Shown: positions 2,828-21,856 of the stretch, piece by piece
Position numbering within the stretch: the stretch's first letter is position 1
How the letters are laid out: the number at the start of each line of letters is the position of its first letter
NCBI RefSeq assembly: GCF_000317085.1
Contig: NC_019702.1
Coordinates: 1,208,394 to 1,272,393 of the forward strand
Direction: 5' to 3'
From: Synechococcus sp. PCC 7502
GTDB taxonomy: Bacteria; Cyanobacteriota; Cyanobacteriia; Pseudanabaenales; Pseudanabaenaceae
DNA: 64,000 nucleotides
The notes under the pieces: generated by a model
Database searches by the model: none
The model's input: only the letters and a program-made list of their open reading frames with translations
What the model was told of the DNA's origin: nothing
Made by a program: the position numbers and the translations under genes

Positions 2828-3316
2828 TTAAAGTAAAGCATCATCAAATTTACCTTCTTCTTTGATCATTAAATAATCAAAACCTTCCCTTAAGCTGGGC
2901 GATCGGTGCATCAGAGTTTTATACATTTCCATAATTATATTCTCGGGAACGGGATTAGTTCTATGTTCATTACGCTCTAGGCAAATCCACAACGGTACAT
3001 TCAACCAAATGCCTGTGATTGATGTAAACCCAATATTTTTACTGAGGGTAATAATTTCTTGACGATAGTGAGAGCGATAGTTGGTAGCGTCATAAATTAC
3101 AGATTTCTGCTCCTGATAGGATTCCTGAAATTGCAGCTTGATCTGAGCATAGATTTCTGTCCAATTTCCTTGAATATTACTAGAGCCATAGAGTTCACAT
3201 CGAATTAGATCGGGAGAAACCACGGTGATCGGAGTAGCAGAGCTTTGGACTAGGTTACTGACAAAACTAGATTTACCACTGCCGGGAATACCAATCAGGA
3301 TAATTACTCTAGGCAT
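2828..3316 (-). CDS. AAA_33-type P-loop kinase/ATPase (polynucleotide-kinase-like)
   Basis: A 162-residue protein starting with a beta strand and Walker A motif (GIPGSGKSS, residues 8-16). It has the SPDLIRCELYG, YDATNY and WLNVPLWICLERNEHR segments typical of the AAA_33 / zeta-toxin-like / T4 polynucleotide-kinase 5'-kinase fold, where the YDATN element corresponds to the Walker B region and R-rich lid follows. It probably phosphorylates a nucleotide or RNA end, but no substrate can be read from the sequence. It lies 29 bases downstream of the REC-GGDEF-EAL gene on the same strand and is probably its last operon member; there is no partner antitoxin gene beside it. Confidence 0.85.
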   Translation of the reverse strand: MPRVIILIGIPGSGKSSFVSNLVQSSATPITVVSPDLIRCELYGSSNIQGNWTEIYAQIKLQFQESYQEQKSVIYDATNYRSHYRQEIITLSKNIGFTSITGIWLNVPLWICLERNEHRTNPVPENIIMEMYKTLMHRSPSLREGFDYLMIKEEGKFDDALL

Positions 3317-3345: not shown

Positions 3346-5088
3346 TTACAGGTGATAAATCTTAGTAATTTCCGATGCTGGTAAGGGCTTAGAGAATAGA
3401 TAACCCTGTCCAAACTGACAACCAAGTTTTTGCAGGTATTCAAGTTGTTGAGTTGTTTCTATACCTTCGGCAATTACCGCTAAACCCAATTGATTACTCA
3501 GGGCAATAATAATTTCCGTAACATGATAACCAGAATCCTGCAATTCAATTTGATTGACAAAGGAGCGATCTATTTTCAAGTTATCCAAGGGAAACCGATG
3601 TAAATAGCTAAGTGAAGAATAGCCTGTGCCAAAGTCATCAATACTGATTTGAATATGTCTAGCTCGTATTTCTTTAGTCAGGGCGATCGCCATTTCCGCA
3701 TTATCCATGATCGCACTTTCCGTAATTTCCAACTTGAGATGCTTGGGATTAATTCCAGTTTCTTGTAAGACCTGGTCAATATCAGCTAGTAAAGTCGGAG
3801 AAGCAAACTGCCGCACCGATAAATTTACACTCATGGTTAACTCTGTCCAACCTTGGAGTTGCCATACTCGGAGTTGCTGACAGGCTTGCTTTAGTACCAT
3901 CATGCCCACAGGTACAATCAGCCCTGTTTCCTCCATGCAGGGGATAAATTCTACGGGTGAAACCATACCTCGATGGGAATTTTGCCAACGCACTAAAGCC
4001 TCAAAGCCTGATAGTTTTTGAGTGTGCAGATCAATAATTGGCTGGTAGTAGAGAATGAATTCCTGTTGCTCTAAGGCTCTTTGCAGATCATGTTCTAGTG
4101 CCAACCGATTGATCATAGCTAGGTGCATAGTCCGATCGAAGATTTGATAGTTATCTTTGCCCTTTAACTTGGCTTGATACATGGCGGTATCGGCATCTTG
4201 TAGAAGTTCCACGGGATCACGATCAATCTCATTACCTAAGGCTATGCCAATGGAAACGTTAGTGTAAACTTCACAATCGGCAACGATAAACGGTGGGTGA
4301 AAGCTCTGCAAAACTTTATGGATAAATGGCTCTAGTTCATTGTCAATGTGAGATAGCAAAAAACAAAATTCATCTTCTCCCATACGAGCTAGTAAATCTT
4401 GGGGGCGGAGATGTTGCTGTAAACGGTGGGCGATCGCTACTAATAATTGATCACCAACAGTATGCCCAAAGGAACCATTCACCAACTTAAATTGATTACA
4501 ATCGAGATACATCAAGGCAAAGGATGATTCTCCAGTACTTAAAATTTCACTTAATCTTTGTAGTAAAAACCTACGACTGGGTAAGTTAGTTAAGGCATCT
4601 TGGAAAATCATTGCCTGTAACTGGGCTGTGCGTTCCTGTACAGTTGCCTCGAGGCGGGTATTAAAAGTAGCTAATTGCTGATATTGCTGGCGAATGCGTA
4701 ACATCGATCGCACCCTAGCAGTTAACTCTAAACGATTGACAGGTTTACTAATAAAGTCATCGGCACCTGCGGCTAAACATTGAGCAAGGTCTTTTTTGGT
4801 GGTTAGAGCCGTAACCATAATGATGGGGAGTGCTTCATATTTAGGTATAGCTTTCAGATACTTACAAACCTCTATGCCATCCATACCCGGCATCATCACA
4901 TCTAGCAAGATCAGATCGGGATTAAATGTATCTATGCCAGCGATCGCCTCTTGCCCATTGGCAGCATAATGTAAGCTATAGTCATGATCACCTAAAAATG
5001 CTTCAATCACGTCAAAGTTATTAGGTTCATCATCAACCACTAAAATTGAATAGGTAAGCGAATGGGAATTTGAGAAGGTATCTATCAT
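3346..5088 (-). CDS. Response regulator with GGDEF and EAL domains (c-di-GMP turnover)
   Basis: A 580-residue cytosolic two-component output protein. Receiver domain about 14-135 with the acidic pair at D19/D20, phospho-acceptor D63 ([11 protein letters not shown]) and K in ISKPVN; then a coiled coil (about 135-160), a GGDEF domain (about 160-320) and an EAL domain (about 330-575). The GGDEF signature reads MGEDEF (second Gly is Glu) with RPQD five residues before it at the inhibitory I-site position. The EAL half keeps [44 protein letters not shown] and AEGIET, so phosphodiesterase activity is likely intact. The gene follows the HPt-bearing hybrid kinase by 65 bases, making it the natural phosphorelay target (inference). 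Confidence 0.95.
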
Positions 5089-5153
5089 GGCTTTCTGATT
5101 ACTAGTCCCAAATCATAACAATCTATAATTGTAATCTGGTTTTAGGCTACTTC

Positions 5154-7523
5154 CTATGTCGGTGAACTTTCGAGAGCAGATTGATCTAGGTAATTTTGTA
5201 AATAGGCTATAAGTGAGGGCAAGAGTTCCTCAACCTTTGTCATGAGAATATCAACTTGATCTAATTGGCGTTGACGACCTGCAACTTCCATGGCAAAACA
5301 AGCATCTGCAAAGGCGATCGCTCCCAACATTCTGCTACTGCCCTTTAAGTTATGGGCGTTATATTCTATTTGGTCTGCATCTTTATCTAAGGTAGCTTGA
5401 CGCAGGTTTTTGAGCAAATTCGGAGATTCGTCTGTAAGGAAGATCGTGATCATGCGTTTGGGTAAGTTCAGTGAAACTTTGGCAATCTCATTGAGGGCAT
5501 TCTCATCAAATTCAGTATTAACTTCAGCCGTGGTTTGGGGCGTGGCAATTTCCTTAGGAACATTTCCCCATCGCTCTAGGATTCTTTGTAAGGTATCAAA
5601 AAATATGGGCTTAGTAATATAGTCATCCATGCCCGCATCCAAACACATTTCTCGATCGCCCTGCATGGCACTAGCAGTCATCGCAATTAAAGTCGGTCGA
5701 GACGGATGAGTTGATATTTCTACCCATTGGTTGACAATATAGGTGGCAGTTTCTAAACCATTCATCACTGGCATCTGCACATCTAGGAATACCAGATCAT
5801 AGGTATCAGTTTTAAGTGCGGCAATTGCTTCGGCTCCGTTATTGACAACGGTGGGAGCGTAGCCCATTTTTCCTAGCATTGCTAAAACTAGCTCCTGATT
5901 AATCAGATTATCTTCGGCAATTAGGATATTGAGTGGCATTTTAGTTGCCAGATTTGTATTGAGGGGATGAGTTTGCCGCAGCATATTTCTACCTTCAAAC
6001 GGCGTAATCGCTTGGGGAATTTCAGTGGTAATGACGGCAGGTAAAACGAAGGAAAAGGTAGAACCTTCATTAATCACACTTTCCGCCCAAATTCTGCCGC
6101 CCATCATCCGCACAAGCTTTTGACAAATTGCCAGCCCTAATCCTGTGCCGCCATACTTACGCGCTGTGGAGATTGATGCTTGGGTAAATGGTTGAAATAG
6201 CTTTTCTAATTGGGCAGGAGTTAACCCAATACCTGAATCTTGCACTTTAAATAGAAGTTCCAGTCCATTTTCTGTGTCTGGGGATAGGGATACAGATAAA
6301 CGCACTACACCTGCGGGGGTAAACTTAACGGCATTATTAGCCAGATTCAGTAAGATTTGGCGGAGACGAATGGCATCTCCAATGATATAAGTCGGCGTGC
6401 TTGCATCAACCTCACAACTTAACTCAATGCCTTTTTCTTGAGCTTGTTTAGCCAGAAGTGAACAGGTATCAGCCACGATCGCGTGGACATCAAGGGGTAT
6501 ATGCTCTAGTAAAAGCTTTCCTGATTCCAATTTGGAGAAATCGAGGATGTCATTAATTACAGTTAAGAGAATTTCGCCGCTAGTTTGAATAGATTGGACA
6601 AATCTTTGTTGATCCTGTTCTAGGGGGGTAGTTGATAAAAGCTCTGTCATACCTAGGACACCATTAATCGGAGTGCGGATTTCATGGCTCATCATTGCCA
6701 AAAAGTCAGACTTGATCCTTAGGGCAGATTCGGCTTCTTCCTTTGCCTCTTGGAGGGCTTTTTCTTCTAGTTTGCGATCGGTAATGTCTCGAAATCGCCA
6801 CACAAAGCCCCAAAACTTACCATTGGGTGAAGTAACAGGACTACTAAAGTATTCATAGATCAGGTCATCGGTTTCTAGCTCTCCGTAACTGACTTGATCG
6901 GGGGAATCATAGGTATCTTCCAGAATTGTAGAGAGTTTTTCAGGAAATTTGGCTTCATGTAACAAAGGCAGTAACAGTAAATCCTGTGCTTCAAGTTCTT
7001 TAGCAATGGGATGAATACCCCACATATCACAGATTTTTTTGTTGTATGCCACTAACTGCCCCTGTTCATTGGCAGCAATTACCCCTTCTAAAGTTGCCTC
7101 CAGTTGAGCAAGAATCAGAGCATTGGCACGTTCTAGGCGGTTTTGTTGTTCTCGAATCCGTAGCATTGACTTAACTCTTGCTCTAAACTCCAGAGAATTT
7201 AGAGGCTTGCTAATAAAGTCAGTAGCCCCTGCATTCAGGCATTTGGCTAAATCTTCTTTGGAATTTAAAGCAGTTACCATTACGATTGGAATTGCTTTCC
7301 ACTCAGGTAGAGTTCTAATGACTTTGCAGACTTCTATGCCGTCCATGTTGGGCATCATCACATCTAGTAAAATCAAATCAGGTTGGAATACCTCCAGAGA
7401 GGCGATCGCAATTTCTCCACTTTCGGCGTAATGCAACTGGTAGTTTTGATCACTTAAAAGAGTCTCTATTACATCAAAATTATCGGCTTCGTCGTCAATG
7501 ATTAAGATAGATGCTAGATTCAT
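5154..7523 (-). CDS. Hybrid histidine kinase REC-PAS-HisKA-HATPase-REC-HPt
   Basis: A 789-residue soluble kinase. Domain order: receiver 1-125 (D54 in ILLDVMMP), PAS about 135-250, coiled coil, HisKA with the H-box MMSHEIRTP (H280), HATPase_c ([27 protein letters not shown]), second receiver (about 540-665, [11 protein letters not shown]) and a C-terminal HPt domain with AHNLKGSS (H724). It is the only kinase of the island with its own HPt, so it could pass phosphate from the receivers of neighbouring kinases to the REC-GGDEF-EAL protein encoded next (inference). The ATG is preceded by a strong AGGAGG that overlaps the stop codon of the upstream kinase (11 bases apart), implying translational coupling. 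Confidence 0.96.
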
Positions 7524-7530
7524 TACTTAT

Positions 7531-7536
7531 CCTCCT
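7531..7536 (-). promoter_or_regulatory. Strong ribosome-binding site overlapping an upstream stop codon
   Basis: AGGAGG on the minus strand lies seven bases before the ATG of the REC-PAS-kinase-HPt gene and overlaps the TAG stop of the CBS-GAF-PAS kinase, so ribosomes ending one gene are placed to start the next. Confidence 0.7.
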
Positions 7537-10465
7537 AAGAAACTCCTAAAACTTGTTGTATAGAGCTTACCAATTGCTTTAGCTTAACAGGTTTAGCCAA
7601 ATAATCACTAGCTCCTGCGGTGAGACAACGCTCCCGATCATCGGGCATTGCTAGGGCTGTCAGGGCAATAATTGGTATCTTAGTTAAGTCGGGATCGAGC
7701 CGAATCAGTTTAATAGCTTCTAGTCCATCCATGACTGGCATTTGAATATCCATCAAAATTATGTCTGGATGATGGGCTTTTGCCATGGCGATCGCTTCTT
7801 TACCATTCTGAGCCAAGATCATCCGATAACCCTTGGCACTCAAATAACTAGAGACAGTTATAGTATTGGCATCATTATCATCAGCTATGAGGATCAAAGG
7901 GGATAGTTGTTTATATTCAGCGTCTGGTAAATCCGTTACTAAGTTTTTTAGGGGTTGATCAAGAGGTTGATCAGAGGCGATCGCTTTAGAAATGCTATCA
8001 GAAACTATGGGCAGATCAATCGTAAAGCAGCTACCTATGCCTAATTCACTGGTCAAACCTACCTTGCCACCATGCAACTCCACCATTTGTTTAACCAGAG
8101 CCAGTCCCAAACCTGTGCCTGTGTACTGACGATTTAAGGCACTATCAATTTGGACAAAAGGCTGAAATAACTTTTTAATATTGTCTGAAGAAATCCCAAT
8201 CCCTGTATCAGCGATCGCAAAGTGGAGCCAATTTTGCTGCTGAGAAACTTCTAAAGAAATCCGTCCACCCTCTGGCGTAAATTTCATGGCATTATTCAAC
8301 AAATTAATCAATACCTGCCGCATCCGTCGCTCATCTAGCATTTGCTCAGGTAAATCTTGGGGTACTTTAATCTCTAACTGAATTCGCTTATTCAGAGATT
8401 GCTGTTTAATAAATGCCAGACTAGATTGGCATAGGGTCGAAATATTAGTGGGAGCAAAATCTAGTTCAATCTGTCCTGATTCAATTTTAGCGACATCAAG
8501 AATATCATTAATTAACGCCAACAGGTGACTGCTACTACGTTCCACTGTTTGCAACGCTTTCATCTGCCGCTCATTTACAGAACCAAAGACTTCATCTTGC
8601 AATCCTTCGGTCATACCTAAAATGGCATTGAGGGGGGTACGAAGTTCATGGCTCATATTGGCTAAAAACTCATCCTTTAAGCGGGTGGCACGAGAGAGTT
8701 CTTGGTTAGTTAGTTGCAGTTGCATTTCCGTTTGTTTGCGATCGCTAATATCCAGAGCCGTGCCAAACAGATAACTTATTTCCCCCGCCGCATTACGTCT
8801 GGGATTACCCTGAGCAAAGATATAACCAGTGGAACCATCGCCCCTAATAATCTGTAAATCGACTTCATAGGACTCACCAAATTTAATAGCATGGGTAATT
8901 AAATCATCTAAAGTATGCCAATCAGGAGGATGAAAGTATTTACTGATCTCCTCGTAGGTAAGCTCAATTTCCTCTGGATTAAGCTTAAAGATGCGATAAA
9001 GCTCAGGTGACCATGAAACCGTTTGGGTGAACACATCAAATTCCCAACTGCCGACATGGGCAATTTTCTGAGCCTCTGCTAAATCCATTTGAGTTTTTAG
9101 TAACTTTGCCTCAGCTTGTTGGCGTTCGGTAATATCGTGGATAGATATCAAATATGCAGGTTCTTGATCCCATGTAATTGGCACAACTTGAAACTCACTT
9201 TCGCCAATTTTGCCATCATGGGAGAAATAGGTAATTTCAAATTGATTATGCACAATGTTGGGTACGCCAATAAGTATCCCCTTCAATTGCTGAACCTCTA
9301 TCCCAAAGATTCTACTCGCCGATGGATTTGCAAAAACTATACGCCCTTCTTGGTTGGCAATTAAAATTCCTTCCGAGATATTAGAAACAATCAAATCTAA
9401 GCGGTTCTCACTGTTTTGTAGGGCAGTAGTCCGTTTTACGATTTTGCTTTCTAGTTCTTGATTGAGACGCTGCAATTGCATCATTGTACTTGATTGCTGA
9501 ATGGCAATTCCAATATGCGTAGCCAAGTTTTGCAGTAGTGATATGGTTAATCCTTCCCAGTGGCGAACTTTGGCACATTCTTGTGCTGCTAATAATCCCC
9601 AAAGCTGATCGCCATTCAAGATCGGTACAACAATAATTGCTTTCACTTCAATCTGAATCAGAAAATCTCTATGACACTCAGTTAGGTTCCCTTGATAAAT
9701 ATTATCTGTGACCTGAATGCGTCCATTTTTATAAGGCTCCACCATATGCTCTTGAAAGTGTGGATCAGTGATGGTTCTGTCTAGGAGTGAACTCCATTGA
9801 GGTACAACCGATTCGGCAACAATGATGCCACTCCAGTCGGGTTCAAAACGGTAGGCAATTACTCGATCGGTTTGCAGAAACTGCCGAATTTCTTGAACTG
9901 TGGTATCGAGAATAATCTGTAAGTCTAATGAAGTTTGAATGCGATTAGCGATCGCTGTTAATAATGATTCGGATTGCATCTTTTCCCTATGATTATTGAT
10001 CTCTGTGAAATCAATAATTGGCAATAGATCATTTAAAGTAAAAAGCCCAATCGGATAATTATGCTCATCTACAAGTGGCAAATAACTAATGTGATGTTGG
10101 CGTAACAAATTCAGAGGCGTAAAAGCATCTTCAACTTCTGATTTTCGTAATGTAATCACAGGTTGAGTCATCACCTCGGCAACCTTAATTTCATTACGAA
10201 TTTCCTTACCGCCTGAGTTTATGACCATTAATCGCAATAGATCAGACTGAGTTAAAATTCCTACAATTTGAGCATCAGCAATTACCAAAACACATAAGTG
10301 ACCATTTCTAGGCGATTTTATCCTTTCTCCTGATTGCCCAGAATTATGCTCATGGGTTTGCTTAATTAACTCTAATACATCACCGAGACAAGACTCCGCA
10401 CTAATAATTAGCAGATCTTGAGCGATCGCCTGCGCTAGTATCGAGGCACTAAAGGTTTTGGTCAC
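7535..10465 (-). CDS. CBS-GAF-PAS-PAS hybrid histidine kinase, candidate cyanobacteriochrome
   Basis: A 976-residue kinase: two CBS domains (about 10-90 and 95-150), a GAF domain (about 168-325), two PAS domains (about 352-450 and 460-578), HisKA (NMSHELRTP, H606), HATPase_c and a C-terminal receiver (about 855-976, LMDIQMPVMDG). The GAF domain has the cyanobacteriochrome pattern: YRFEPDWSG, DIY-type segment NIYQGNLTECHRDFL with C264-H265, then IIVVPIL, LWGLL and IAIQQ. C264 is at the bilin-attachment position; the DXCF site reads DPHF (no second Cys). The start is GTG at 10463-10465, as no early in-frame ATG exists. No membrane segments. It diverges from kaiC2 across 151 bases, so the two may share a regulatory region. 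Confidence 0.95.
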   Translation of the reverse strand: MTKTFSASILAQAIAQDLLIISAESCLGDVLELIKQTHEHNSGQSGERIKSPRNGHLCVLVIADAQIVGILTQSDLLRLMVINSGGKEIRNEIKVAEVMTQPVITLRKSEVEDAFTPLNLLRQHHISYLPLVDEHNYPIGLFTLNDLLPIIDFTEINNHREKMQSESLLTAIANRIQTSLDLQIILDTTVQEIRQFLQTDRVIAYRFEPDWSGIIVAESVVPQWSSLLDRTITDPHFQEHMVEPYKNGRIQVTDNIYQGNLTECHRDFLIQIEVKAIIVVPILNGDQLWGLLAAQECAKVRHWEGLTISLLQNLATHIGIAIQQSSTMMQLQRLNQELESKIVKRTTALQNSENRLDLIVSNISEGILIANQEGRIVFANPSASRIFGIEVQQLKGILIGVPNIVHNQFEITYFSHDGKIGESEFQVVPITWDQEPAYLISIHDITERQQAEAKLLKTQMDLAEAQKIAHVGSWEFDVFTQTVSWSPELYRIFKLNPEEIELTYEEISKYFHPPDWHTLDDLITHAIKFGESYEVDLQIIRGDGSTGYIFAQGNPRRNAAGEISYLFGTALDISDRKQTEMQLQLTNQELSRATRLKDEFLANMSHELRTPLNAILGMTEGLQDEVFGSVNERQMKALQTVERSSSHLLALINDILDVAKIESGQIELDFAPTNISTLCQSSLAFIKQQSLNKRIQLEIKVPQDLPEQMLDERRMRQVLINLLNNAMKFTPEGGRISLEVSQQQNWLHFAIADTGIGISSDNIKKLFQPFVQIDSALNRQYTGTGLGLALVKQMVELHGGKVGLTSELGIGSCFTIDLPIVSDSISKAIASDQPLDQPLKNLVTDLPDAEYKQLSPLILIADDNDANTITVSSYLSAKGYRMILAQNGKEAIAMAKAHHPDIILMDIQMPVMDGLEAIKLIRLDPDLTKIPIIALTALAMPDDRERCLTAGASDYLAKPVKLKQLVSSIQQVLGVS

Positions 10466-10616: not shown

Positions 10617-12314
10617 ATGCTCAAAATAATTAATAATCTCAAACCGCAATTACCCAAATGCCTGACGGGGATTCATGGACTAGATGAAATTACGGGTGGC
10701 GGACTACCACAAGGGCGACCAACTTTAGTCTGTGGTTCTGCTGGTTGTGGCAAGACCCTGCTAGGAGTTGAGTTCTTGGTACATGGAGCCGTGGATTATG
10801 GTGAAGCGGGTGTGCTAATGACCTTTGAAGAGACAGCCGAGGAAATTACCCAAAACGTGGCTTCCTTAGGATGGGAGCTTGATCAGCTAGTAACCGATGG
10901 CAAGCTCATTATTGACCATGTTTATATTAATCCTCTGGGAATAGAAGAAACAGGTGAATACGATCTTGAAGGCTTATTTATCAGACTTGGTAGTGCGATC
11001 GCCGAAATTGGAGCAAAGCGGGTAGTTCTGGATACAATTGAGGTCTTATTCGCAGGTTTGCATAATACCAATATCGTACGGGCGGAGATCAGGCGTTTAT
11101 TTGGATGGTTAAAACAACAGGGTGTAACTGCAATTATTACAGGTGAACGGGGAGAAAATACCTTAACTCGCCAGGGATTGGAAGAATATGTCTCAGATTG
11201 CGTGATTCGGCTGGAGCAGCGAACTGTTGCAGAAATTAGCACCCGTTATTTACAAATATTTAAATATCGAGGGACTAGGCATGGAGTTAATGAATACCCG
11301 TTTTTAATTGAGGAAAATGGTATTTTTGTCGCCCCGATTACCTCACTAAAGCTAGACCATGATATTTCGACAGAACAGATTTCCACAGGAATCCCTCGCC
11401 TTGATACGATGCTAGACGGTGGTGGCTATTATCGGGGCAGCAGCATTTTAGTAACGGGAATGGCAGGTACAGGTAAAACTACCTTAGCTGGTTATTTTGC
11501 CTCCTCAACTTGCGATCGCGGTGAACGCTGTTTATATTTAGCAACTGAAGAAGCTCCTCAACAAATCTTGAGAAACCAACGTTCCATTGGATTAGACTTA
11601 AACCATTATATCGACAGTGGATTACTGCGACTAGAAGCAGTCCGCCCCACTGCCTATGGATTGGAAATGCGCTTAATCAAAATCCTTGCTTGGGTAAATG
11701 AATTTCAGCCGACCGCCGTTGTCATCGATCCCATGAGTAATCTTGCGACCACTGAAACCCATAACCAAACTAAAAACTTTCTGATGCGCCTGATCGATCT
11801 GTTTAAGGCTCAACAAATTACAGTTTTTTTTACTAATCTGCTTCAGTCTGGGAATTTGGGGGAATCTATCGAAGTTAATATCTCCTCGCTCATGGATACT
11901 TGGTTAGAACTCCGTACCATAGAAACCAATGGAGAGCGTAATCGCACTTTGAGCATTCTCAAATCCCGTGGCATGAATCATTCCAACCAAGTACGGGAAT
12001 TTCTGGTCACCAGTGAAGGAGTGGAGTTGGTAGATGTTTATCTAGGGGCGCATGGTTTCCTGACGGGGACAGCCCGAGCCGCTCAACAGGCACAGGAAAA
12101 GTCAGATAAATTAAGCCAACAGCAAGAGTTTGAGCGTAAAAAACGGCGATTTGATTATCAGCAAGCATTTATCCGCGCCCAGATCGCTGCCCTTGAAGTT
12201 CAGTTAGCAACGGAACGGGAAGAATTAGATATGTCGAATCGTCAGGAGAAGGTAAATCAACAGATTTTATTTGATGATCGCGATAGTATGGCAGAACTAC
12301 GCAATGCTGACTAA
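10617..12314 (+). CDS. kaiC2: KaiC-family ATPase, KaiC2-like
   Basis: RecA-type double-domain ATPase of the circadian KaiC family, 565 residues. Domain CI has Walker A GSAGCGKT (40-47) and the catalytic pair E71-E72; CII has GMAGTGKT (281-288) and E311-E312. At the autophosphorylation site of clock KaiC (S431/T432) this protein has S423-S424 in NISSLMDTW, the Ser-Ser form I associate with KaiC2 rather than the clock Ser-Thr form. The tail after about residue 485 is a long charged, Gln-rich coiled coil (about 80 residues) in place of the short KaiA-binding tail, and there is no kaiA here. kaiB2 follows after 40 bases in the same operon. Function outside the core oscillator is probable but not shown. 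The first ATG in frame is used. Confidence 0.93.
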   Translation: MLKIINNLKPQLPKCLTGIHGLDEITGGGLPQGRPTLVCGSAGCGKTLLGVEFLVHGAVDYGEAGVLMTFEETAEEITQNVASLGWELDQLVTDGKLIIDHVYINPLGIEETGEYDLEGLFIRLGSAIAEIGAKRVVLDTIEVLFAGLHNTNIVRAEIRRLFGWLKQQGVTAIITGERGENTLTRQGLEEYVSDCVIRLEQRTVAEISTRYLQIFKYRGTRHGVNEYPFLIEENGIFVAPITSLKLDHDISTEQISTGIPRLDTMLDGGGYYRGSSILVTGMAGTGKTTLAGYFASSTCDRGERCLYLATEEAPQQILRNQRSIGLDLNHYIDSGLLRLEAVRPTAYGLEMRLIKILAWVNEFQPTAVVIDPMSNLATTETHNQTKNFLMRLIDLFKAQQITVFFTNLLQSGNLGESIEVNISSLMDTWLELRTIETNGERNRTLSILKSRGMNHSNQVREFLVTSEGVELVDVYLGAHGFLTGTARAAQQAQEKSDKLSQQQEFERKKRRFDYQQAFIRAQIAALEVQLATEREELDMSNRQEKVNQQILFDDRDSMAELRNAD

Positions 12315-12752: not shown

Positions 12753-15700
12753 CTAAGAAACTGCTAAAACTGCTTGGATAGTGCTTACCAATTGCTTTAA
12801 CTTAACAGGTTTAGCCAAATAATCATTAGCTCCTGCGGTGAGACAACGCTCCCGATCGCCGGGCATTGTTAGGGCTGTTAAAGCAATAATATGTATATCT
12901 AATTTAAGGTCTTCACGAATGTGCTTAATTGCTTCGATGCCATCCATACCCGGCATTTGAATATCCATCAAAATTAGATCAGGGGTTTCGGTTTGCACCA
13001 GAGCGATCGCTTCTTCGCCATTTTTTGCCACAGTAATGCGATAGCCCTTTGCTTTGAGGTAACTGGTAAAGGTACTGATATTTGCCTCATTATCTTCTAC
13101 TAGCAGGATCAGGGCTTTGTTGTCTGAGGAGCTTAATTCTGAAGTGGTGGTTAATTTATCTTCTACGATCGCTTCAGGTGAGATGGCAAAATTAAGATCA
13201 TAGGGTAGATCGATTGTAAAGCGGCTTCCCACACCTAGTTCGCTAGTTAGTCCTACAGTGCCATCGTGGAGTTCGACAATACGTTTAACGAGTGCAAGCC
13301 CCAAACCAGTTCCTTCATATTGTCGATTTAAGGCACTATCAATTTGAATAAAGGGCTGAAACAGTTTTTTAATATTCTCTGGTGAAATCCCAATACCTGT
13401 ATCGATTACAGCAATGTGTAAAAATTGTGGCGATGCGGAATCTGTAGTGGATATGGGGGGAAGTTGTTTAACTTCTAGGGTGATGCGTCCTCCCTCTGGG
13501 GTGAATTTCACGGCATTGTTAAGCAGGTTGATCAACACCTGACGGATACGGCGCTCATCCACTAGCAGGTCGGGTAGATTCAGTTGGATTTTAATCTCTA
13601 GCTGGATGCCTTTTTTTAGTGCCTGTTGTTTGACGAAGGCAAGACTAGATTGACAGAGTAGAGATACAGAGCAGAGGTTACGGTCTAGTACCATCTGACC
13701 AGATTCGATTTTGGCGATATCGAGGATGTCGTTGATCAACTCCAGTAGATGATTACTGCTACGTTCTACGGTTTGTAATGCTTTGATTTGCCGCTCATTT
13801 ACAGAACCAAAGACTTGCTCTTGTAAACCTTCTGTCATGCCCAAGATCGCATTGAGAGGAGTGCGGAGTTCGTGGCTCATGTTAGCTAAAAACTCATCCT
13901 TGAGGCGGGTGGCACGGGCAAGTTCTTCGTTAATGGTTGAGAGTTCTTCATTACTGCTGGTGAGTTTTATTTCAGTTTCCCGCCTTATCAACAGTTCAGA
14001 CTGAATTTGCTGGTGTAGGCTGGCTTGTTGAATGGCGATCGCCAACTGGCTCGCAATTTGTTTCAGTAAATTAATTTCCCAGTCTTGCCACTGGCGTGGA
14101 AAATCACATTGATGAACGCTCAGAAATCCCCAGAGAGTTTGATGCTGAATAATTGGAACTACAACTGCGGCTTTGACTTGGATTTTGGCAAAGAATTCAC
14201 GCACGCTCGGTAAGACTGACTGGTTATCATTTTCGCGATCGCAAAAGGTAAATACTGCTCCTTGGACATAGTAATCGTATCTGTCTTGGGTAATAACGCT
14301 TTCAGGAAATTCGATATTGAGAATTTTGAGCCAATTTGGCAAAACAGTTTCGGTAATAGCAGACGCTGCTCCATTTGGAGCCAAACGATAGATCAACACT
14401 CGATCTGACTGTAAAACCTGACGAATTTCCTTAATAGTGTCATTAAGAATCTCTTCTAAGTTTAAAGACGATCGCACCCGTTCTATAATCAATCCTAATA
14501 GGCGTTTATGTTCGGCTTGGTGTTTTAATCTAGCTTCAGTTTGGCGGCGAGTGGTGACATCTTGAGTTATCCCTACTAAACCAATAATCTGACCTTCCGA
14601 GTCTCGCAGGGGGGCTTTGTGAGTTTCTAACCATCTCTGTTCACCATTAGGTAAGGTTAGGGTTTCCTCGATTACTAATCTGGGTTCAGCAGATTCCATA
14701 ACACGCTGATCGTCGGCACGATAGGCGATCGCTTCGGCTTCCAAAAATGAAAGATCAAAATCAGTTTTGCCAATAATTTCGGTTGTTGAGGACAAACCTA
14801 GGATTGCAGCAAGTTGCTGATTGCATCCTAAATAGACAGACTCTCGATTCTTCCAAAATAACGAGAGTGGAATAGTATCAATTATGGTTTGAATAAACTG
14901 TTGAGATTCTCGCAAAGACTTCTCAATCTGTTTGCGATCGCTAATATCACGCACAAAAAAGACTACTTCATCATGGTTGCATGGAGCAACGCGCACTTCC
15001 TCGTGACGGAGTTTGCCCTCAATCCAAACCTCTTGTTCGTAGCTCTGCACGGTTTGAGTGGCAAGGGCTTGCTGCAGAGCCGCATATTTAGTTTCTGAAT
15101 GAGTTGGGACAATATCTGCTGGCAAAGCCTCATATATACTTTTGCCCATCGCTTGATCAGGATCAACCAGATTTTTACCTTGAGGTGATGTGAGGAAATC
15201 CAAATATTGACCATCACGGTTAACTCGAAATACCAAATCGGGTAAGGCTAATAAAGTGGCACGGGCGCGTTCTTCGCTGTGTTGTAGGGCTTCTTGGATG
15301 GCTTTGCGATCGCTAATATCCATGACAATTCCAAATAATCCGATCACCTGCCCTGACGCATCCCAGATCGGTTCTGCCTTGGCAAAAGTATGCACAGAGG
15401 AACCATCGGCTCGAATAACTTGGAAGTCTGCTTCATAGGGTTCACCCTGAATTGCTCTATCTACAAAATCAGTGACACGCTTTCGTTCATCCAATGGATA
15501 ATATTGGAGCATTTCTTCATAGGTGGGTTCAGGCTGATTAGGGTCGAGACCAAAAATCTTAAAAACTTCAGCAGACCAAATCAGTTTCTGGTTTAGGAGG
15601 TCTAGGTTCCAATCACCAAGACGGGCAATCTGTTGTGCCTCCCGCAAACGGGATTCACTCCGTTGCAAAGCGGCAGTACGTCTCTCCACTCTGCGTTCAA

Positions 15701-16562
15701 GATTTTGGTTGAGTTTATGTAAGGCTGCTTCTGCCTGTTTGCGATCGCCAATATCCCGCACAATAGCCAAAACTTCTTGGTCATTAATTGCGAGTATCCT
15801 GACTTCTTCGTAAACTACACGATCCTGCTTGAGAAAGCTGTGTTCATAGACTTGCAGTTCACCTGTGGCGATCGCCTGCCCGATAATTTGTAGCTGGTTT
15901 TGGAGCAAATCTGGTGGTAGAACTTCGGAAATATGATTGACAATTGGCAGAAAATCCCCAGTTTCAATTCCTGGATTGATGTAAGCCAAGCAAGAGCCAT
16001 CTCGCTGAAGTCGTAGCAACAAATCTGGAATCGCCTCCAGCATAGTGCGATTAGTTAGTTCGCTAGCTTGTAAGGCAGCAGTCCGTTGTTTCACTTTCGC
16101 TTCTAAGTCTTTGTTGAGTTGCAAGAGGTTCATTTCGGCTTGTTTACGCACGATCTCAACTAAGGAGTCTTTGTCTAGTAGCCCCACGATGCGATCTTGA
16201 TCATCTAGGATGGGCAAATGCCGAATCCGATTCTGCTGCAATAGCTCCAAGACATTAGTGATGTCCGTAAGCGCAGATTCATGGAGAGTAGTAACTGGAT
16301 GGCTCATCACCGTCTGAATTGGCAACTGGTTTAGGGGGATGGGCTGGGTGCAAATGCGGACAATATCTCGTTCGGTCAGAATGCCAATCAAGCCTGCTCT
16401 TTCAGGTTGTATACTTTCCACCACTAGCACATAGTTTGAACCAGTTTCACCCATCATAGCGATCGCTACCATAACTGTCGTATCTGCTGTCACCACCGAA
16501 GGATTACGGTCGATCGCAGACAGTAAATCGTTGGGGATGGGGGGATTTGAAGTACTCATCAT
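12753..16562 (-). CDS. CBS-PAS4-GAF hybrid histidine kinase
   Basis: A 1269-residue soluble kinase. Order: CBS pair (about 10-140), four PAS domains (about 165-275, 305-420, 425-545 and 553-673, each ending in a D-ISDRK-type motif and joined by coiled coils), GAF (about 690-848), HisKA (NMSHELRTP, H897), HATPase_c ([31 protein letters not shown]) and a receiver (about 1150-1269, LMDIQMPGMDG). Its GAF has PRQW and IAIQQ like cyanobacteriochromes but SVREFF where the bilin Cys-His would be, so it should not attach a bilin. It starts 11 bases after the 1760-residue kinase with AGAAGAG before the ATG, so the two are co-translated. Its receiver is nearly identical at DNA level to that of the neighbour. 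Confidence 0.95.
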   Translation of the reverse strand: MMSTSNPPIPNDLLSAIDRNPSVVTADTTVMVAIAMMGETGSNYVLVVESIQPERAGLIGILTERDIVRICTQPIPLNQLPIQTVMSHPVTTLHESALTDITNVLELLQQNRIRHLPILDDQDRIVGLLDKDSLVEIVRKQAEMNLLQLNKDLEAKVKQRTAALQASELTNRTMLEAIPDLLLRLQRDGSCLAYINPGIETGDFLPIVNHISEVLPPDLLQNQLQIIGQAIATGELQVYEHSFLKQDRVVYEEVRILAINDQEVLAIVRDIGDRKQAEAALHKLNQNLERRVERRTAALQRSESRLREAQQIARLGDWNLDLLNQKLIWSAEVFKIFGLDPNQPEPTYEEMLQYYPLDERKRVTDFVDRAIQGEPYEADFQVIRADGSSVHTFAKAEPIWDASGQVIGLFGIVMDISDRKAIQEALQHSEERARATLLALPDLVFRVNRDGQYLDFLTSPQGKNLVDPDQAMGKSIYEALPADIVPTHSETKYAALQQALATQTVQSYEQEVWIEGKLRHEEVRVAPCNHDEVVFFVRDISDRKQIEKSLRESQQFIQTIIDTIPLSLFWKNRESVYLGCNQQLAAILGLSSTTEIIGKTDFDLSFLEAEAIAYRADDQRVMESAEPRLVIEETLTLPNGEQRWLETHKAPLRDSEGQIIGLVGITQDVTTRRQTEARLKHQAEHKRLLGLIIERVRSSLNLEEILNDTIKEIRQVLQSDRVLIYRLAPNGAASAITETVLPNWLKILNIEFPESVITQDRYDYYVQGAVFTFCDRENDNQSVLPSVREFFAKIQVKAAVVVPIIQHQTLWGFLSVHQCDFPRQWQDWEINLLKQIASQLAIAIQQASLHQQIQSELLIRRETEIKLTSSNEELSTINEELARATRLKDEFLANMSHELRTPLNAILGMTEGLQEQVFGSVNERQIKALQTVERSSNHLLELINDILDIAKIESGQMVLDRNLCSVSLLCQSSLAFVKQQALKKGIQLEIKIQLNLPDLLVDERRIRQVLINLLNNAVKFTPEGGRITLEVKQLPPISTTDSASPQFLHIAVIDTGIGISPENIKKLFQPFIQIDSALNRQYEGTGLGLALVKRIVELHDGTVGLTSELGVGSRFTIDLPYDLNFAISPEAIVEDKLTTTSELSSSDNKALILLVEDNEANISTFTSYLKAKGYRITVAKNGEEAIALVQTETPDLILMDIQMPGMDGIEAIKHIREDLKLDIHIIALTALTMPGDRERCLTAGANDYLAKPVKLKQLVSTIQAVLAVS

Positions 16563-16573
16563 AGATATCTCTT

Positions 16574-19500
16574 CTAATGGGTTAACAGAGTTTGAATCAT
16601 CTGAGTTAGTTCTTTTAGTTTGACAGGCTTGGCAAGATAGTCATTTGCTCCTGCTTCTAAGCATCTTTCCCGATCGCCGGGCATTGTTAGGGCTGTTAAG
16701 GCAATGATATGTATATCTACTAATTTAAGGTCTTCACGAATGTGCTTAATTGCTTCTAGTCCATCCATAACTGGCATTTGAATATCCATCAAAATTAGAT
16801 CGGGGGTTTCGGCTTGAACCAGAGAGATCGCTTCTTCGCCATTTTTTGCCACAGTAATGCGATAACCCTTCGCCTTGAGATAACTGGTAAAGGTACTGAT
16901 ATTTGCCTCGTTATCTTCTGCTAATAGGATTAGGGGTTGTTTGATGGGCTGATTATTTTCTGGAATATTTTGTTGATTATTTAACGGACTTTGCCCGTGA
17001 GGTAGTTCAAATTGATCAGAAACTTGATCCAGTTCATAATTCGCTTCATCCGTAACTATTGGCACTCGAACTATTGGTGCTGGATAGGGAAGATCGATGG
17101 TGAAACAACTGCCTACCCCCAACTCACTGGTAAGACCAACTTTGCCACCGTGCATTTCCACAATGCGTTTGACGAGCGAAAGTCCTAATCCTGTACCTGC
17201 GTACTGACGATTGAGCGCACTATCAATTTGTACAAAAGGCTGAAATAGTTTACTAATATTTTCGGAGGCAATGCCAATGCCTGTATCGCTCACAGCAATG
17301 CGAAGAGAATCCCGCACTTCCACACTTCCCTCTTGGGGGGGAATTCCTAATTCCTGCTCGGCTAAGGTTTTATATACTCTAACTTTTGTAATCCCTTGTA
17401 AGGGTGACTGGCTAGGTTTAATGATCAGTTTTTTACAACTGGCTTTAAGGGTAATACGTCCACCTTTAGGGGTAAACTTCACAGCGTTATTAAGTAAATT
17501 AATTAACACCTGACGGATACGCCGTTCATCTATAACTAAATCAGGTAGATTGGGTGGCACGATCATTTCCACTTGAATGCCTTTTTTTTGTGCCTGTTGT
17601 TTGATAAATACCAAACTGGAATTACACAGAGGAGCGATCGCTGTGGGGGTGCAGTCGAGTTCAATTTGTCCCGATTCAATTTTGGCAACATCAAGGATAT
17701 CGTTAATTAGCTCTAGTAAATGGGAAGCACTACGTTCAATGGTTTGCAGAGCCTTAATTTGGCGATCGCTCACATTCCCAAAAATTTGTTCTTGCAGTCC
17801 TTCAGTCATCCCCAAAATCGCATTAAGCGGAGTTCGCAGTTCGTGACTCATATTGGCGAGAAATTCATCCTTCAGTCGGGTGGCACGGGCGAGCTCATCA
17901 TTGGAAGCTGCTAATTGTTGGTTGCGCTCGGTGAGTTGTTGTTCTGCTAGTTGTCGTTCCGTGAGTTGTTGTTGTACCTGTTGGAATAAATCGGCTTGCT
18001 GAATGGCGATCGCTAACTGGTTCGCAAGCTGCTGGGTAAAATCAATTTCAGGCTGCTGCCATTTGCGTGTGGATGCACATTGATGAATGCACAATAAACC
18101 CCACAGTTGATCCGCAGAAAGTAAGGGAACTACCAGATTAGAACGCACCTGAAACTTTGCTAAAATATCGACATGGCATTCTCTTTGCCCATTTTCGTAG
18201 ATATCCTCAGCGACATAATATCTGCCTTTTGCATAGAGAGAAGCATAATTTTCACCAAAGGTGTGATCATGAACTCGCTCGGCAAGAACGGAGGGAAAGC
18301 CATCTACAACTGATTCCGCCACAAATTCACCATCATCAAAACCAGATTCAGGGTAAAACTTAAAGACTCCCACTCGATTTGCCCCCAAAACATGGCGAAT
18401 TTCTAAACAAGCAGTATCAAAAATCGTCTGTAGATTGAGGGATTTGCGAATGCGTTGGGTCACTTCCCGTAGGAGTTTTTCACGGTTTGCCTGTTGATGA
18501 ATAATCTGCTCGGCTTGCCTGCGATCGGTAACATCTCGAAAAATAGCACGGGTTGCCACAGGTACCCCATCCTTCATCCGACAGTTAATACTACCTTCAG
18601 CAATTACTTCCTGCTGAGTTTTGGTTAAAAATACCAACTCGACCCAATCAACTTTGGTGAGGATACCCGCTTGCATTTGTCTCAAAATTTCCCGATATGG
18701 CATCTGAGAGTGGGAATGTAGCACATCAAAAATTGTAAGTTTAACCACTTCTGCTTTTGAGTAACCTAGGGTTTCCCGCCAAGCTTGGTTAACGTATTCA
18801 AACCTACCATCGGGCAGAAAAACACTCTGAATTAAATCATTGGCATTATCAAAGAAATCATTTAACTGATTTTCTCGCTCAAATAGTTGGGCTGTGCGCT
18901 GTGCCACCCGTTTTTCTAACTCGGTATTTAGTTCTTGTAGCTGTAGTTCATAGTGGATAAGATCAGTAATATCTTGGACAGTACCCCTTGTCAAAATTGG
19001 GCTGCCATCTTCAGCATAAATAGTTTCTGCCTGTTCTTGGACATACTTAACCTGTCCATTTGCCAATAGGATACGGTGCCTAATCATGTATGGAGTGCGA
19101 TTGCGAACGGAGTTATTAAATGCTTGAGCAACTGCCTCACGATCCTCTGGATGCACAGCATTTTGGAATACCTGAAGGGTAAGTTCAGTTAGTCCCCCCT
19201 CGGTACTCTTGGTGTTTGGGGTGATCTCAAATATCCGATAAACTTCATCTGACCAATACAGATTCCCATTACTAAAATTCTGCTCCCAGTTGCCGATACG
19301 GGCAATCCTCTGTGCCTCTTGCAGGCGATCGGACAGCAGTTCAAGTTGTTGTTGATCGTAAGCTCGCTCTTGGGCATCAGCAATGGTTTGCCCCATCACG
19401 CCCAGTAATCTAATACTTTCTTGACCCCAAGTATTCACCTCACCAAAGGTGGCAAATCCGATCGCCCCAGTCACAACTGATTTTCGTACTAACGGCACCA

Positions 19501-21856
19501 TCAAAATTGATCTGAGGTTTAACTGTTGCCAATTAGCTTGATCGATCGCTGCTGCTGGAGGTAAATCATTGACATCATGGATATATACAGTCTCCCTTGC
19601 CATAATCAAAGGACTACTCCACGGGAATAATATCCAACTGGGAATATTTTGGGCGACACCAATTTGGGCGGGGTACCCAGCTTTAACCCATTCATTGGTC
19701 ATGCTTGTGGTACGGCTGATCTCGTCATAGGCAAAAATGTAGCAGGTATCAACTTGGGTAACTTCACCAATGAGATCGAGGGTATGTTGAATTTCGGCAT
19801 TGAGGTCATTAGGGCTGACATCCACAAATCGACCAATAATTTCGGCAATTAAGCGGTTAAAATCTCGTTGAATTTGGAGAGCCTGTTCTGAAGCTTTGCG
19901 ATCGCTAATATCAGTAATTGTGCCTAAAAACCCATTAATTTTCCCATTACTATCCACTTCAGCAACGATCTGTCCATAGACCCAAACCACTGCCCCCTCT
20001 GGACTTAGATAACGATACTCCAACTTAAAAGGACGATTTTCCGCTACAGCTTTTTGACGTTCTAGGGCAACTCGCTCCCGATCATCAGGGTGTAATGCCT
20101 GTTGTAATTGATCTCCTAAGATTGCTTCTAAAGGAATTCCGGCAATTTCGCACCAACGTTGATTGGCATAAATACATAGTCCAGAGACATCCGTTCGGAA
20201 AATTCCCACTGGCGATGCCGCGACTAAAGAGGCATACTGCTGTTTACTGTGACGTAACCACTCTTCCGTTTGTTGGCGTTCAATTAATTCCTGCTGTAAT
20301 TGTTCGTAGGTAGTGGCTTGTTGCAGGGCGATCGCTAATTGAAATGATAATAATTCTAATAACTCTATTTCTTCAGGTTGCCAGTTTCGAGCAAATTCAC
20401 TTTCCGTGGCATTGAGTAATCCCCACAGTTGATCACCACACAAAAGCGGAACTATCATCTTGGCACGGGTATGGAGGCGGATTAATAATTCCCGATGACA
20501 ATCTGTCATTTCAATCGCATAAATATCGGGGACAACTCGAATATGCCCTTGGCGATAAATTTCTGACCAATCTTGCTGAAAACAACTATCTTGAATACGT
20601 TCACCGATTAGAGATATTTCCGAGTTCGTAGATTCAGCCACAATTAACATCTCGCCATTAGCTTCACACCGAAAAATATTAGTGCGATCGCAACCTAAAA
20701 CTTGGCGGACTTGTTCTACGGTCGTATCCAAAATTGATTGAAGGCTTAAGGATGAGCGAATTTCTGCGGCAATTTTTGCCAGTAATTGATCCCGTTCTAA
20801 CTTTACCTTTAGTGTATTTGTGCGCCTCTCTATCTCCTGCTCTAGCTCAAGTGTGCGCTTTTCTAAAAGCTCAATTTTTTCAACTTCCAATCGTATTAAT
20901 TTCTGCTCTAGGACTTCAGCTAATTTATATAGCTCCAAGGGGTTAAGTGCCTGTAGTAGATTGCTCTCAGTTACAATTCCCAATAATTCACCTTGGCTTC
21001 CAGTCACTGCCAAACGGCGGATGCGCTTATCCTGCATGATTTGATGCACAGCCCACAAAGACTCCTGGGGCGATATCGCAAATACTGGCGTACTCATGAC
21101 CGATTGCACAGGACAATTTACCCAATCTAAGCTCAGTGCCTGAAACTGCACAATATCTCGCTCGGTAACGATGCCCACGGGAATTTTTAGAGATTCTCTT
21201 TCCTTAATCAAAACAATGCAACTGACTTCCTGCTCTGTCATTAAAGCGGCGATCGCTAAAATTGAAACATCATCTTTGCTATAAATTACCTCCGTGGTCA
21301 TAACTTCATTCACCAGGCGCAACCGCAAAAGGTCAATGGGATGGGAGGTTTGGCGTAAGCTTTCTTGGGTTAATAAACCAGCCAAATGATCATCATCGTC
21401 AAGCATAGGTAAATGGCGAATTTGATGCTGTTGAAATAAACTTACGGCTGATAATAAATCTGTGAATTTAGACTCCTGTAAACTAATTACAGGATGAGAC
21501 ATCAGATTGGAAATCGGTACCCGTAAATCCTGCTGCTGCCCAATTAGCCTTACTACATCTCGTTCCGTCAGAATACCAACTAAACGCTTATGCTCGACAA
21601 CGATAATGCAACTAGATTTAGCTCTGCTTATACTCTCATGTAAATTCTCTAGAGGAAAATCAATAAATTCTTTTGAAGCTTCTGCATAACTAATTAACAC
21701 TCCACTCATCTGGGCGATCGCCTCAATTGCCAAAGTATGCGGTGACACAACCAAGGGATCACGAATAATCGCCGTCTGCCGTTGGGCGAAAGTAAGAGCA
21801 TTGGAACGATTAAGCATAGGTTTATTAAAGCTTGGGTTTGATCTTATCTGCCACAC
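16574..21856 (-). CDS. Very large CBS4-GAF3-PAS3 hybrid histidine kinase, candidate cyanobacteriochrome
   Basis: A 1760-residue kinase. Order: four CBS domains (about 31-105, 112-170, 183-240, 247-305), coiled coil, GAF1 (about 355-515), PAS1 (540-655), GAF2 (665-830), PAS2 (845-965), PAS3 (995-1113), GAF3 (1125-1290), HisKA (NMSHELRTP, H1338), HATPase_c and a receiver at the end. GAF1 carries both a DXCF motif (D423-S-C425-F) and TDCH (C453-H454), the two-cysteine arrangement of DXCF cyanobacteriochromes. GAF3 carries RECHVDIL (C1227-H1228) with DHTF at the DXCF site. GAF2 lacks these residues. An extra segment of about 40 residues sits inside the HATPase domain. Start is GTG at 21854-21856; an ATG at residue 14 is equally possible. 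Confidence 0.94.
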   Translation of the reverse strand: MWQIRSNPSFNKPMLNRSNALTFAQRQTAIIRDPLVVSPHTLAIEAIAQMSGVLISYAEASKEFIDFPLENLHESISRAKSSCIIVVEHKRLVGILTERDVVRLIGQQQDLRVPISNLMSHPVISLQESKFTDLLSAVSLFQQHQIRHLPMLDDDDHLAGLLTQESLRQTSHPIDLLRLRLVNEVMTTEVIYSKDDVSILAIAALMTEQEVSCIVLIKERESLKIPVGIVTERDIVQFQALSLDWVNCPVQSVMSTPVFAISPQESLWAVHQIMQDKRIRRLAVTGSQGELLGIVTESNLLQALNPLELYKLAEVLEQKLIRLEVEKIELLEKRTLELEQEIERRTNTLKVKLERDQLLAKIAAEIRSSLSLQSILDTTVEQVRQVLGCDRTNIFRCEANGEMLIVAESTNSEISLIGERIQDSCFQQDWSEIYRQGHIRVVPDIYAIEMTDCHRELLIRLHTRAKMIVPLLCGDQLWGLLNATESEFARNWQPEEIELLELLSFQLAIALQQATTYEQLQQELIERQQTEEWLRHSKQQYASLVAASPVGIFRTDVSGLCIYANQRWCEIAGIPLEAILGDQLQQALHPDDRERVALERQKAVAENRPFKLEYRYLSPEGAVVWVYGQIVAEVDSNGKINGFLGTITDISDRKASEQALQIQRDFNRLIAEIIGRFVDVSPNDLNAEIQHTLDLIGEVTQVDTCYIFAYDEISRTTSMTNEWVKAGYPAQIGVAQNIPSWILFPWSSPLIMARETVYIHDVNDLPPAAAIDQANWQQLNLRSILMVPLVRKSVVTGAIGFATFGEVNTWGQESIRLLGVMGQTIADAQERAYDQQQLELLSDRLQEAQRIARIGNWEQNFSNGNLYWSDEVYRIFEITPNTKSTEGGLTELTLQVFQNAVHPEDREAVAQAFNNSVRNRTPYMIRHRILLANGQVKYVQEQAETIYAEDGSPILTRGTVQDITDLIHYELQLQELNTELEKRVAQRTAQLFERENQLNDFFDNANDLIQSVFLPDGRFEYVNQAWRETLGYSKAEVVKLTIFDVLHSHSQMPYREILRQMQAGILTKVDWVELVFLTKTQQEVIAEGSINCRMKDGVPVATRAIFRDVTDRRQAEQIIHQQANREKLLREVTQRIRKSLNLQTIFDTACLEIRHVLGANRVGVFKFYPESGFDDGEFVAESVVDGFPSVLAERVHDHTFGENYASLYAKGRYYVAEDIYENGQRECHVDILAKFQVRSNLVVPLLSADQLWGLLCIHQCASTRKWQQPEIDFTQQLANQLAIAIQQADLFQQVQQQLTERQLAEQQLTERNQQLAASNDELARATRLKDEFLANMSHELRTPLNAILGMTEGLQEQIFGNVSDRQIKALQTIERSASHLLELINDILDVAKIESGQIELDCTPTAIAPLCNSSLVFIKQQAQKKGIQVEMIVPPNLPDLVIDERRIRQVLINLLNNAVKFTPKGGRITLKASCKKLIIKPSQSPLQGITKVRVYKTLAEQELGIPPQEGSVEVRDSLRIAVSDTGIGIASENISKLFQPFVQIDSALNRQYAGTGLGLSLVKRIVEMHGGKVGLTSELGVGSCFTIDLPYPAPIVRVPIVTDEANYELDQVSDQFELPHGQSPLNNQQNIPENNQPIKQPLILLAEDNEANISTFTSYLKAKGYRITVAKNGEEAISLVQAETPDLILMDIQMPVMDGLEAIKHIREDLKLVDIHIIALTALTMPGDRERCLEAGANDYLAKPVKLKELTQMIQTLLTH

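Follow-up and report, generated by a model that had tools for sequence, protein, structure and literature searches.

Light-sensor-like and clock-linked signalling genes of Synechococcus sp. PCC 7502 form a cluster that probably ends in a c-di-GMP-degrading enzyme

Several described systems resemble parts of the locus analysed here. In Xanthomonas, RpfC, a hybrid kinase with the domain order HK-REC-HPt, is paired with RpfG, a REC-HD-GYP phosphodiesterase (PMC3749722). CC3396 of Caulobacter carries a GEDEF domain that is inactive as a DGC, binds GTP, and activates the EAL phosphodiesterase of the same protein (PMC4823724). Gene clusters in which kaiC and kaiB are followed by a histidine kinase or a GGDEF/EAL protein were described in a 2011 survey, “except for cyanobacteria” (PMC3164672), and the KaiC2-KaiB2 pair of Rhodobacter, represented in the PDB by 8dba, has been described as an hourglass (PMC11372060).

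The locus lies in Synechococcus sp. PCC 7502, within a 64-kb stretch of DNA that was analysed as a whole and is called the window here (Table 1). Genes for KaiC and KaiB on the plus strand sit between a minus-strand operon, which encodes a 976-aa hybrid kinase, a 789-aa kinase, and a 580-aa REC-GGDEF-EAL response regulator (referred to as the enzyme), and the genes of 2 further CBS kinases of 1269 and 1760 aa. Within the operon, gaps of 11 bp and 65 bp separate the 789-aa kinase gene from the genes before and after it, respectively. A 162-aa ORF (2828-3316, minus strand) with a P-loop-like start, GIPGSGKS, lies 29 bp past the enzyme gene in the same direction; no counterpart of it was found in the scanned loci of relatives.

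The first-pass annotation of this DNA had described the 789-aa protein as a kinase with an HPt at H724, the next gene as encoding a D63 receiver, a GGDEF, and an EAL domain, and the CBS kinases as ending in receivers and lacking an HPt, all of which was borne out. In the open reading frame of the 789-aa kinase, Pfam finds 2 REC domains, HisKA, HATPase, and Hpt (PF01627, 43.6 bits against a cut-off of 24.6), with PAS_4 below its cut-off, and the phosphorylatable His724 lies in the HPt motif AHNLKGSS. The 580-aa frame yields its 3 domains in Pfam and has an aspartate at residue 63. Each of the 3 CBS kinases (976, 1269, and 1760 aa) has a terminal REC with its aspartate (Asp906, Asp1200, and Asp1691, respectively) and lysine in place, and neither Pfam nor the domain scan detected an HPt in any of them. 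The further claim, that the HPt and the c-di-GMP enzyme are single, holds within the window, where the domain scan found 1 HPt, 1 GGDEF, and 1 EAL, but not genome-wide: Pfam gives 9 Hpt matches and 13 GGDEF matches in the whole genome, the former including one in an apparently stand-alone 122-aa frame and two in one frame. The HPt is therefore single in the window only, and the idea that the organism as a whole has just one was rejected. Two features went unmentioned in the annotation: a further hybrid kinase at 55241-58270 on the plus strand and the degeneracy of the GGDEF motif, which reads GEDEF.

Table 1. Coordinates of the signalling genes and domains in the window.
Feature	Position	Strand	Basis or details
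976-aa hybrid kinase CBS-GAF-PAS-HK-REC	7535..10465	-	His606, REC Asp906; Pfam and residue check
789-aa kinase REC(D54)-PAS-HisKA(H280)-HATPase-REC(D581)-HPt(H724)	5154..7523	-	ORF, Pfam, residues
HPt domain, residues 691-776 of the 789-aa kinase, H724 codon 5352-5354	5196..5453	-	Pfam Hpt, E 3.6e-11
REC1, N-terminal receiver of the 789-aa kinase	7173..7508	-	Subfamily is that of the GGDEF-EAL receiver
580-aa REC-GGDEF-EAL response regulator	3346..5088	-	ORF and Pfam
Receiver domain of the REC-GGDEF-EAL protein, D63 codon 4900-4902	4711..5046	-	Pfam
GGDEF domain, degenerate GEDEF motif at 4366-4380, RxxD I-site	4153..4602	-	Pfam and residues
EAL domain, E363 N422 E454 D484 D485 K505 E541 all present	3385..4089	-	Ortholog alignment
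KaiC2-type KaiC of 565 aa with S423 S424, two Walker A motifs and a C-terminal extension	10617..12314	+	Pfam, PDB
KaiB homolog, 106 aa	12355..12675	+	Pfam KaiB, E 1.7e-25
1269-aa hybrid kinase CBS-PAS-GAF-HK-REC, without HPt	12753..16562	-	Pfam and domain scan
1760-aa hybrid kinase CBS-GAF-PAS-HK-REC, without HPt; two GAFs with CH motif (C453, C1227)	16574..21856	-	Domain and pattern scan
1009-aa hybrid kinase PAS-GAF-HK-REC, without HPt	55241-58270	+	In the window, distant from the kinase island

Compared with RpfC/RpfG as described, the 789-aa kinase and the enzyme are alike in that adjacent genes encode a hybrid kinase with a REC and a C-terminal HPt and a REC-linked c-di-GMP phosphodiesterase as the presumed output. 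They differ in that the window has an EAL and a degenerate GGDEF domain where RpfG has HD-GYP, that the window kinase has an extra N-terminal REC, and that the cluster also holds hybrid kinases and kai genes. While an HK-REC-HPt kinase does adjoin a REC-phosphodiesterase, the output is GGDEF-EAL; as HD-GYP is absent, the system is not a member of the RpfG family, and the likeness extends only to how it may work.

The probable direction of the output can be read from the conservation of the enzyme across 59 distinct orthologs. Seven EAL residues that were checked, which we take to be the catalytic set, are identical in all 59, and so are D63 and K115 of the receiver. An unaltered GGDEF motif occurs in 14 of the 59, and the second position is Glu in 35 and Gly in 20; the 17 members from the window’s family divide into 8 with GGDEF, 8 with GEDEF, and 1 with another motif. 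In the window enzyme, GEDEF occupies residues 237-241, the RxxD I-site is kept, and the nucleotide-contact residues D196, K201, N204, and D213 are present; D196, N204, and D213 are presumably GTP-contacting, with roles as in PleD. The enzyme resembles CC3396, as that protein is described, in its GEDEF motif, with predicted nucleotide contacts kept, and its complete EAL site, and differs from it in having a receiver before GGDEF-EAL. Given the invariant EAL set, the degenerate GGDEF, and the precedent of CC3396, phosphodiesterase is likely the conserved activity, and its tuning by GTP through the GEDEF domain is likely by analogy. The first-pass annotation had the output “change” c-di-GMP, which is better put as “lower”, breakdown being the likely outcome. 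A bifunctional or cyclase output was rejected as first choice, as the EAL is invariant while the GGDEF drifts. Some residual cyclase activity may nonetheless persist, since nearly half of the family orthologs (8/17) have GGDEF and the I-site is present in the window.

Of 388 genomes in the class, 51, that of PCC 7502 among them, carry an ortholog of the enzyme (E<=1e-200). The neighbourhood set comprised the 59 distinct orthologs, including the window, loci found earlier, and locus L001, and was split by genome handle into 17 loci in the window’s family and 42 elsewhere. Upstream runs were defined as codirectional genes with gaps under 400 bp, and the domain profiles with which relatives were scanned were derived from the sequences of the window and the loci. 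All 3 control HPts from the PCC 7502 genome were detected by the HPt profile, one of them weakly, so that a divergent HPt in relatives could be missed. In 42 of the 59 loci, the gene immediately upstream of the enzyme encodes a codirectional hybrid HK-REC kinase without an HPt (40, plus two with other domain counts); the other immediate neighbours are REC-HK (6), an HPt kinase (3), a divergent hybrid kinase (5), another gene (1), or a contig end (2). Outside the family, 29 of 42 loci have a hybrid HK-REC kinase as the immediately upstream gene in the same direction, several with 4-bp overlaps. An HPt kinase anywhere in the upstream run was found in 13 of the 59 loci, all of them in the window’s family (13/17), and the scan with our own profiles found none in the 42 loci outside it. 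What recurs widely is the pair of REC-GGDEF-EAL and an adjacent hybrid HK-REC kinase that has no HPt. With the HPt kinase confined to operons of one family, the HPt is a family-specific branch and not an obligatory meeting point, and the HPt kinase as partner of the enzyme everywhere was rejected. At 5 loci of family f13 (L192, L194, L196, L197, and L202), the genes of the enzyme and a CBS-PAS-HK hybrid kinase point away from each other instead of sharing an operon; in four of these five, the hybrid kinase has two receivers. With moderate confidence, we read the system as a multi-input His-Asp module, its conserved core being a hybrid kinase and REC-GGDEF-EAL, with the HPt kinase as a family addition.

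Within the family, HPt kinase and enzyme are genuinely paired. A search of 57 other genomes found orthologs of the 789-aa kinase (67-71%) in 12, all within the window’s family, and the same 12 of 34 family relatives carry an enzyme ortholog (at least 72%), while the other 22 have neither at that level (Fisher p 1.8e-9, a statistic that ignores relatedness). In most relatives, a REC-HK gene (domains assigned by Pfam on four REC-HK proteins) and a CBS hybrid kinase stand between the two; in 2 family genomes (G020 and G022), HPt kinase and enzyme are on separate contigs, each cluster near a contig end. All 15 distinct kinase orthologs keep D54, H280, D581, and H724. An HPt is a classical requirement of hybrid kinases whose C-terminal domain is a REC, and this need, the strict co-inheritance and adjacency, and the invariance of H724 all favour H724 as an obligatory junction, with phosphate passing from the CBS-kinase receivers to H724 and on to D63. 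The first-pass annotation had similarly proposed a branched relay in which clock and light inputs meet at the HPt. However, kinase and enzyme stay together outside the family where no HPt kinase is in the run, the genome holds further HPts, and among the domains of the kinase the HPt is the most variable (over the 15 orthologs, its identity to the window sequence averages 55%, against 59% for the linker, 63% for the PAS, and 75-89% for the REC and kinase domains). We therefore consider an obligatory junction improbable. A branched relay is consistent with the co-inheritance, the shared operon, and the invariant phosphosites in the family, as well as with the Kai genes and cyanobacteriochrome-like GAF discussed below, and c-di-GMP is a plausible outlet of the island; what did not stand is the necessity of the HPt. 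That inputs have to meet at H724 finds no support beyond the family, and within it this is just one route among several.

In a tree of receivers, those of the enzyme, REC1, and the REC-HK protein group together (94/90 support), with stray rows outside the group (some of L121, L123, and L206); the tree, based on 112 columns with long branches, is poorly resolved. The 3 kinds of receiver are on average 64-73% identical and have a common helix-1 segment, NFDVIE, whereas mean identity to this group is 30-39% for REC2 and for the receivers at the C-terminus of the hybrids. In a test for concerted evolution at the same locus, enzyme receiver and REC1 are no more alike than shuffled pairs (p 0.15), and the other two receiver pairs gave weak signals (p 0.02 and 0.01). 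The common subfamily suggests a common phosphate donor, and as REC1 belongs to the subfamily of the enzyme’s receiver, both would probably take phosphate from the same donor or donors. Alternatively, the HisKA of the hybrid kinase could phosphorylate D63 directly, with the C-terminal REC competing or acting as a phosphate sink and the 789-aa kinase serving mainly its own output. That a hybrid kinase without an HPt beside the enzyme is the commonest arrangement speaks for such a direct pair, as does the NFDVIE segment of the enzyme receiver, which is unchanged with or without an HPt kinase at the locus. The enzyme receiver shows little resemblance, however, to the C-terminal receivers that the hybrids carry (37% identity on average at the same locus), and unlinked HPt proteins could serve instead. 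We regard direct phosphorylation by the hybrid kinase as improbable.

Candidate inputs to the multi-input module are found among the neighbouring genes. The GAF domain of the 976-aa kinase matches PDB 6oap (E 1.7e-45), which we take to be a cyanobacteriochrome, and aligns with its TECH motif, presumably the one that holds the chromophore cysteine, at Cys264 (codon 9674-9676). By this relation to solved CBCR GAFs and by its cysteine, the GAF is cyanobacteriochrome-like, with putative chromophore binding. Two further GAFs of the 1760-aa kinase have a Cys-His motif, by pattern only.

The KaiC of the window is, by its residues, KaiC2-type. Two serines at the phosphorylation sites (PMC5520375) and an extended C-terminus as in Rhodobacter KaiC (PMC11372060) are given as marks of this subgroup; the window protein has S423-S424 in ISSLMD, and its best PDB match is 8dba (E 1.5e-178), aligned through residue 562 and with it the C-terminal extension. 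The Rhodobacter hourglass, as described, thus holds the closest KaiC in the PDB, but the window genome differs in having a second kaiBC locus, of canonical type, near C3:1118 kb, and timing is a putative function of the window pair.

G015, which belongs to another genus, has an island of ~49 kb with the same layout as the window: kinases, reversed KaiB-KaiC, kinases, HPt kinase, and the enzyme last. This region (contig 259, 9-58 kb; L227, L242, and L111) encodes nearly all kinases or receivers, on one strand except for KaiB-KaiC. The kai island is contiguous with the HPt/enzyme operon in the window and in G015 only. The two are apart in G016, whose kai island contains neither the HPt kinase nor the enzyme up to its end, and likewise in G019 and G293, where the HPt-kinase operon is away from the kai island; a second copy of the enzyme lies ~16 kb from KaiC in G293. 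In G004, G282, and G008, contig ends cut off the view of this linkage. A kinase-rich island of mere neighbours, with no dedicated pathway and separate partners elsewhere, would fit this unlinking and the large kinase clusters common in relatives, but is very unlikely in the face of the conserved order, short gaps, and strict co-occurrence.

Of 28 KaiC2-type loci (window excluded), 10 have a GGDEF gene no more than 8 kb away, where 1.8 would be expected (binomial p 6e-6); counted by family, such a gene is present in 6 of 10, with 1.6 expected (p 0.0018), the expected counts being derived from each genome’s GGDEF density with rounded genome sizes. The same distance holds a GGDEF gene in 1 of 20 canonical kai loci. 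The GGDEF neighbours of KaiC2-type loci are not orthologs of the window enzyme (30-43% identity where measured). KaiC2-KaiB(-KaiB) units often adjoin a PAS kinase and a REC-(PAS)-GGDEF-EAL or REC-GGDEF gene (L246, L250, L251, L252, L256, L257, and others). The co-occurrence of KaiC2 with the HPt kinase (p 0.014) is not relied on, as the KaiC search may not span all 34 family genomes. This enrichment for GGDEF neighbours makes a link between clock homologs and c-di-GMP in cyanobacteria plausible. The window resembles the clusters of the 2011 survey in bringing kaiC/kaiB, kinases, and a c-di-GMP protein into one neighbourhood; the survey excepted cyanobacteria, whereas the window is cyanobacterial and KaiC2-type (PMC3164672). 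As the pattern had already been reported, the cyanobacterial cases extend it; outside cyanobacteria, such a link is not new in kind. In the open-licence literature, we found no paper joining KaiC2 with c-di-GMP and none on a phosphorelay between hybrid histidine kinases and GGDEF-EAL response regulators in cyanobacteria, which is not proof of absence.

In the multi-input module that we favour, the core would be a sensor-HK-REC hybrid kinase paired with the REC-GGDEF-EAL response regulator. We infer that phosphorylation of D63 most likely controls the EAL phosphodiesterase, and that the GEDEF domain, instead of synthesising c-di-GMP, most likely tunes the EAL by binding GTP. In this cyanobacterial family alone, the 789-aa kinase would be added to the core, its H724 HPt giving a second, relayed route to D63 similar to that of RpfC/RpfG. 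The CBS/cyanobacteriochrome kinases would supply light or metabolic input, and KaiC2-KaiB2, antiparallel within the island, could add timing or energy-state input.

The role of KaiC2-type proteins in cyanobacteria is described as unclear (PMC5520375, PMC11372060), and a 2026 paper states that c-di-GMP alters the Synechococcus elongatus clock via unidentified factors (PMC13001216). A bolder reading, which we put forward tentatively and think unlikely as it stands, is that a cyanobacterial KaiC2-KaiB2 timer acts via histidine kinases on c-di-GMP enzymes and, in the window, gates a GTP-tuned phosphodiesterase together with cyanobacteriochrome kinases. If true, it would amount to a light- and energy-state-dependent c-di-GMP switch that operates apart from the canonical clock’s SasA-RpaA output. 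The cluster of light-sensor-like and clock-linked signalling genes probably ends in a c-di-GMP-degrading enzyme, and the recurrent neighbourhood of KaiC2, kinases, and c-di-GMP proteins offers concrete candidates for the connection between clock and c-di-GMP.
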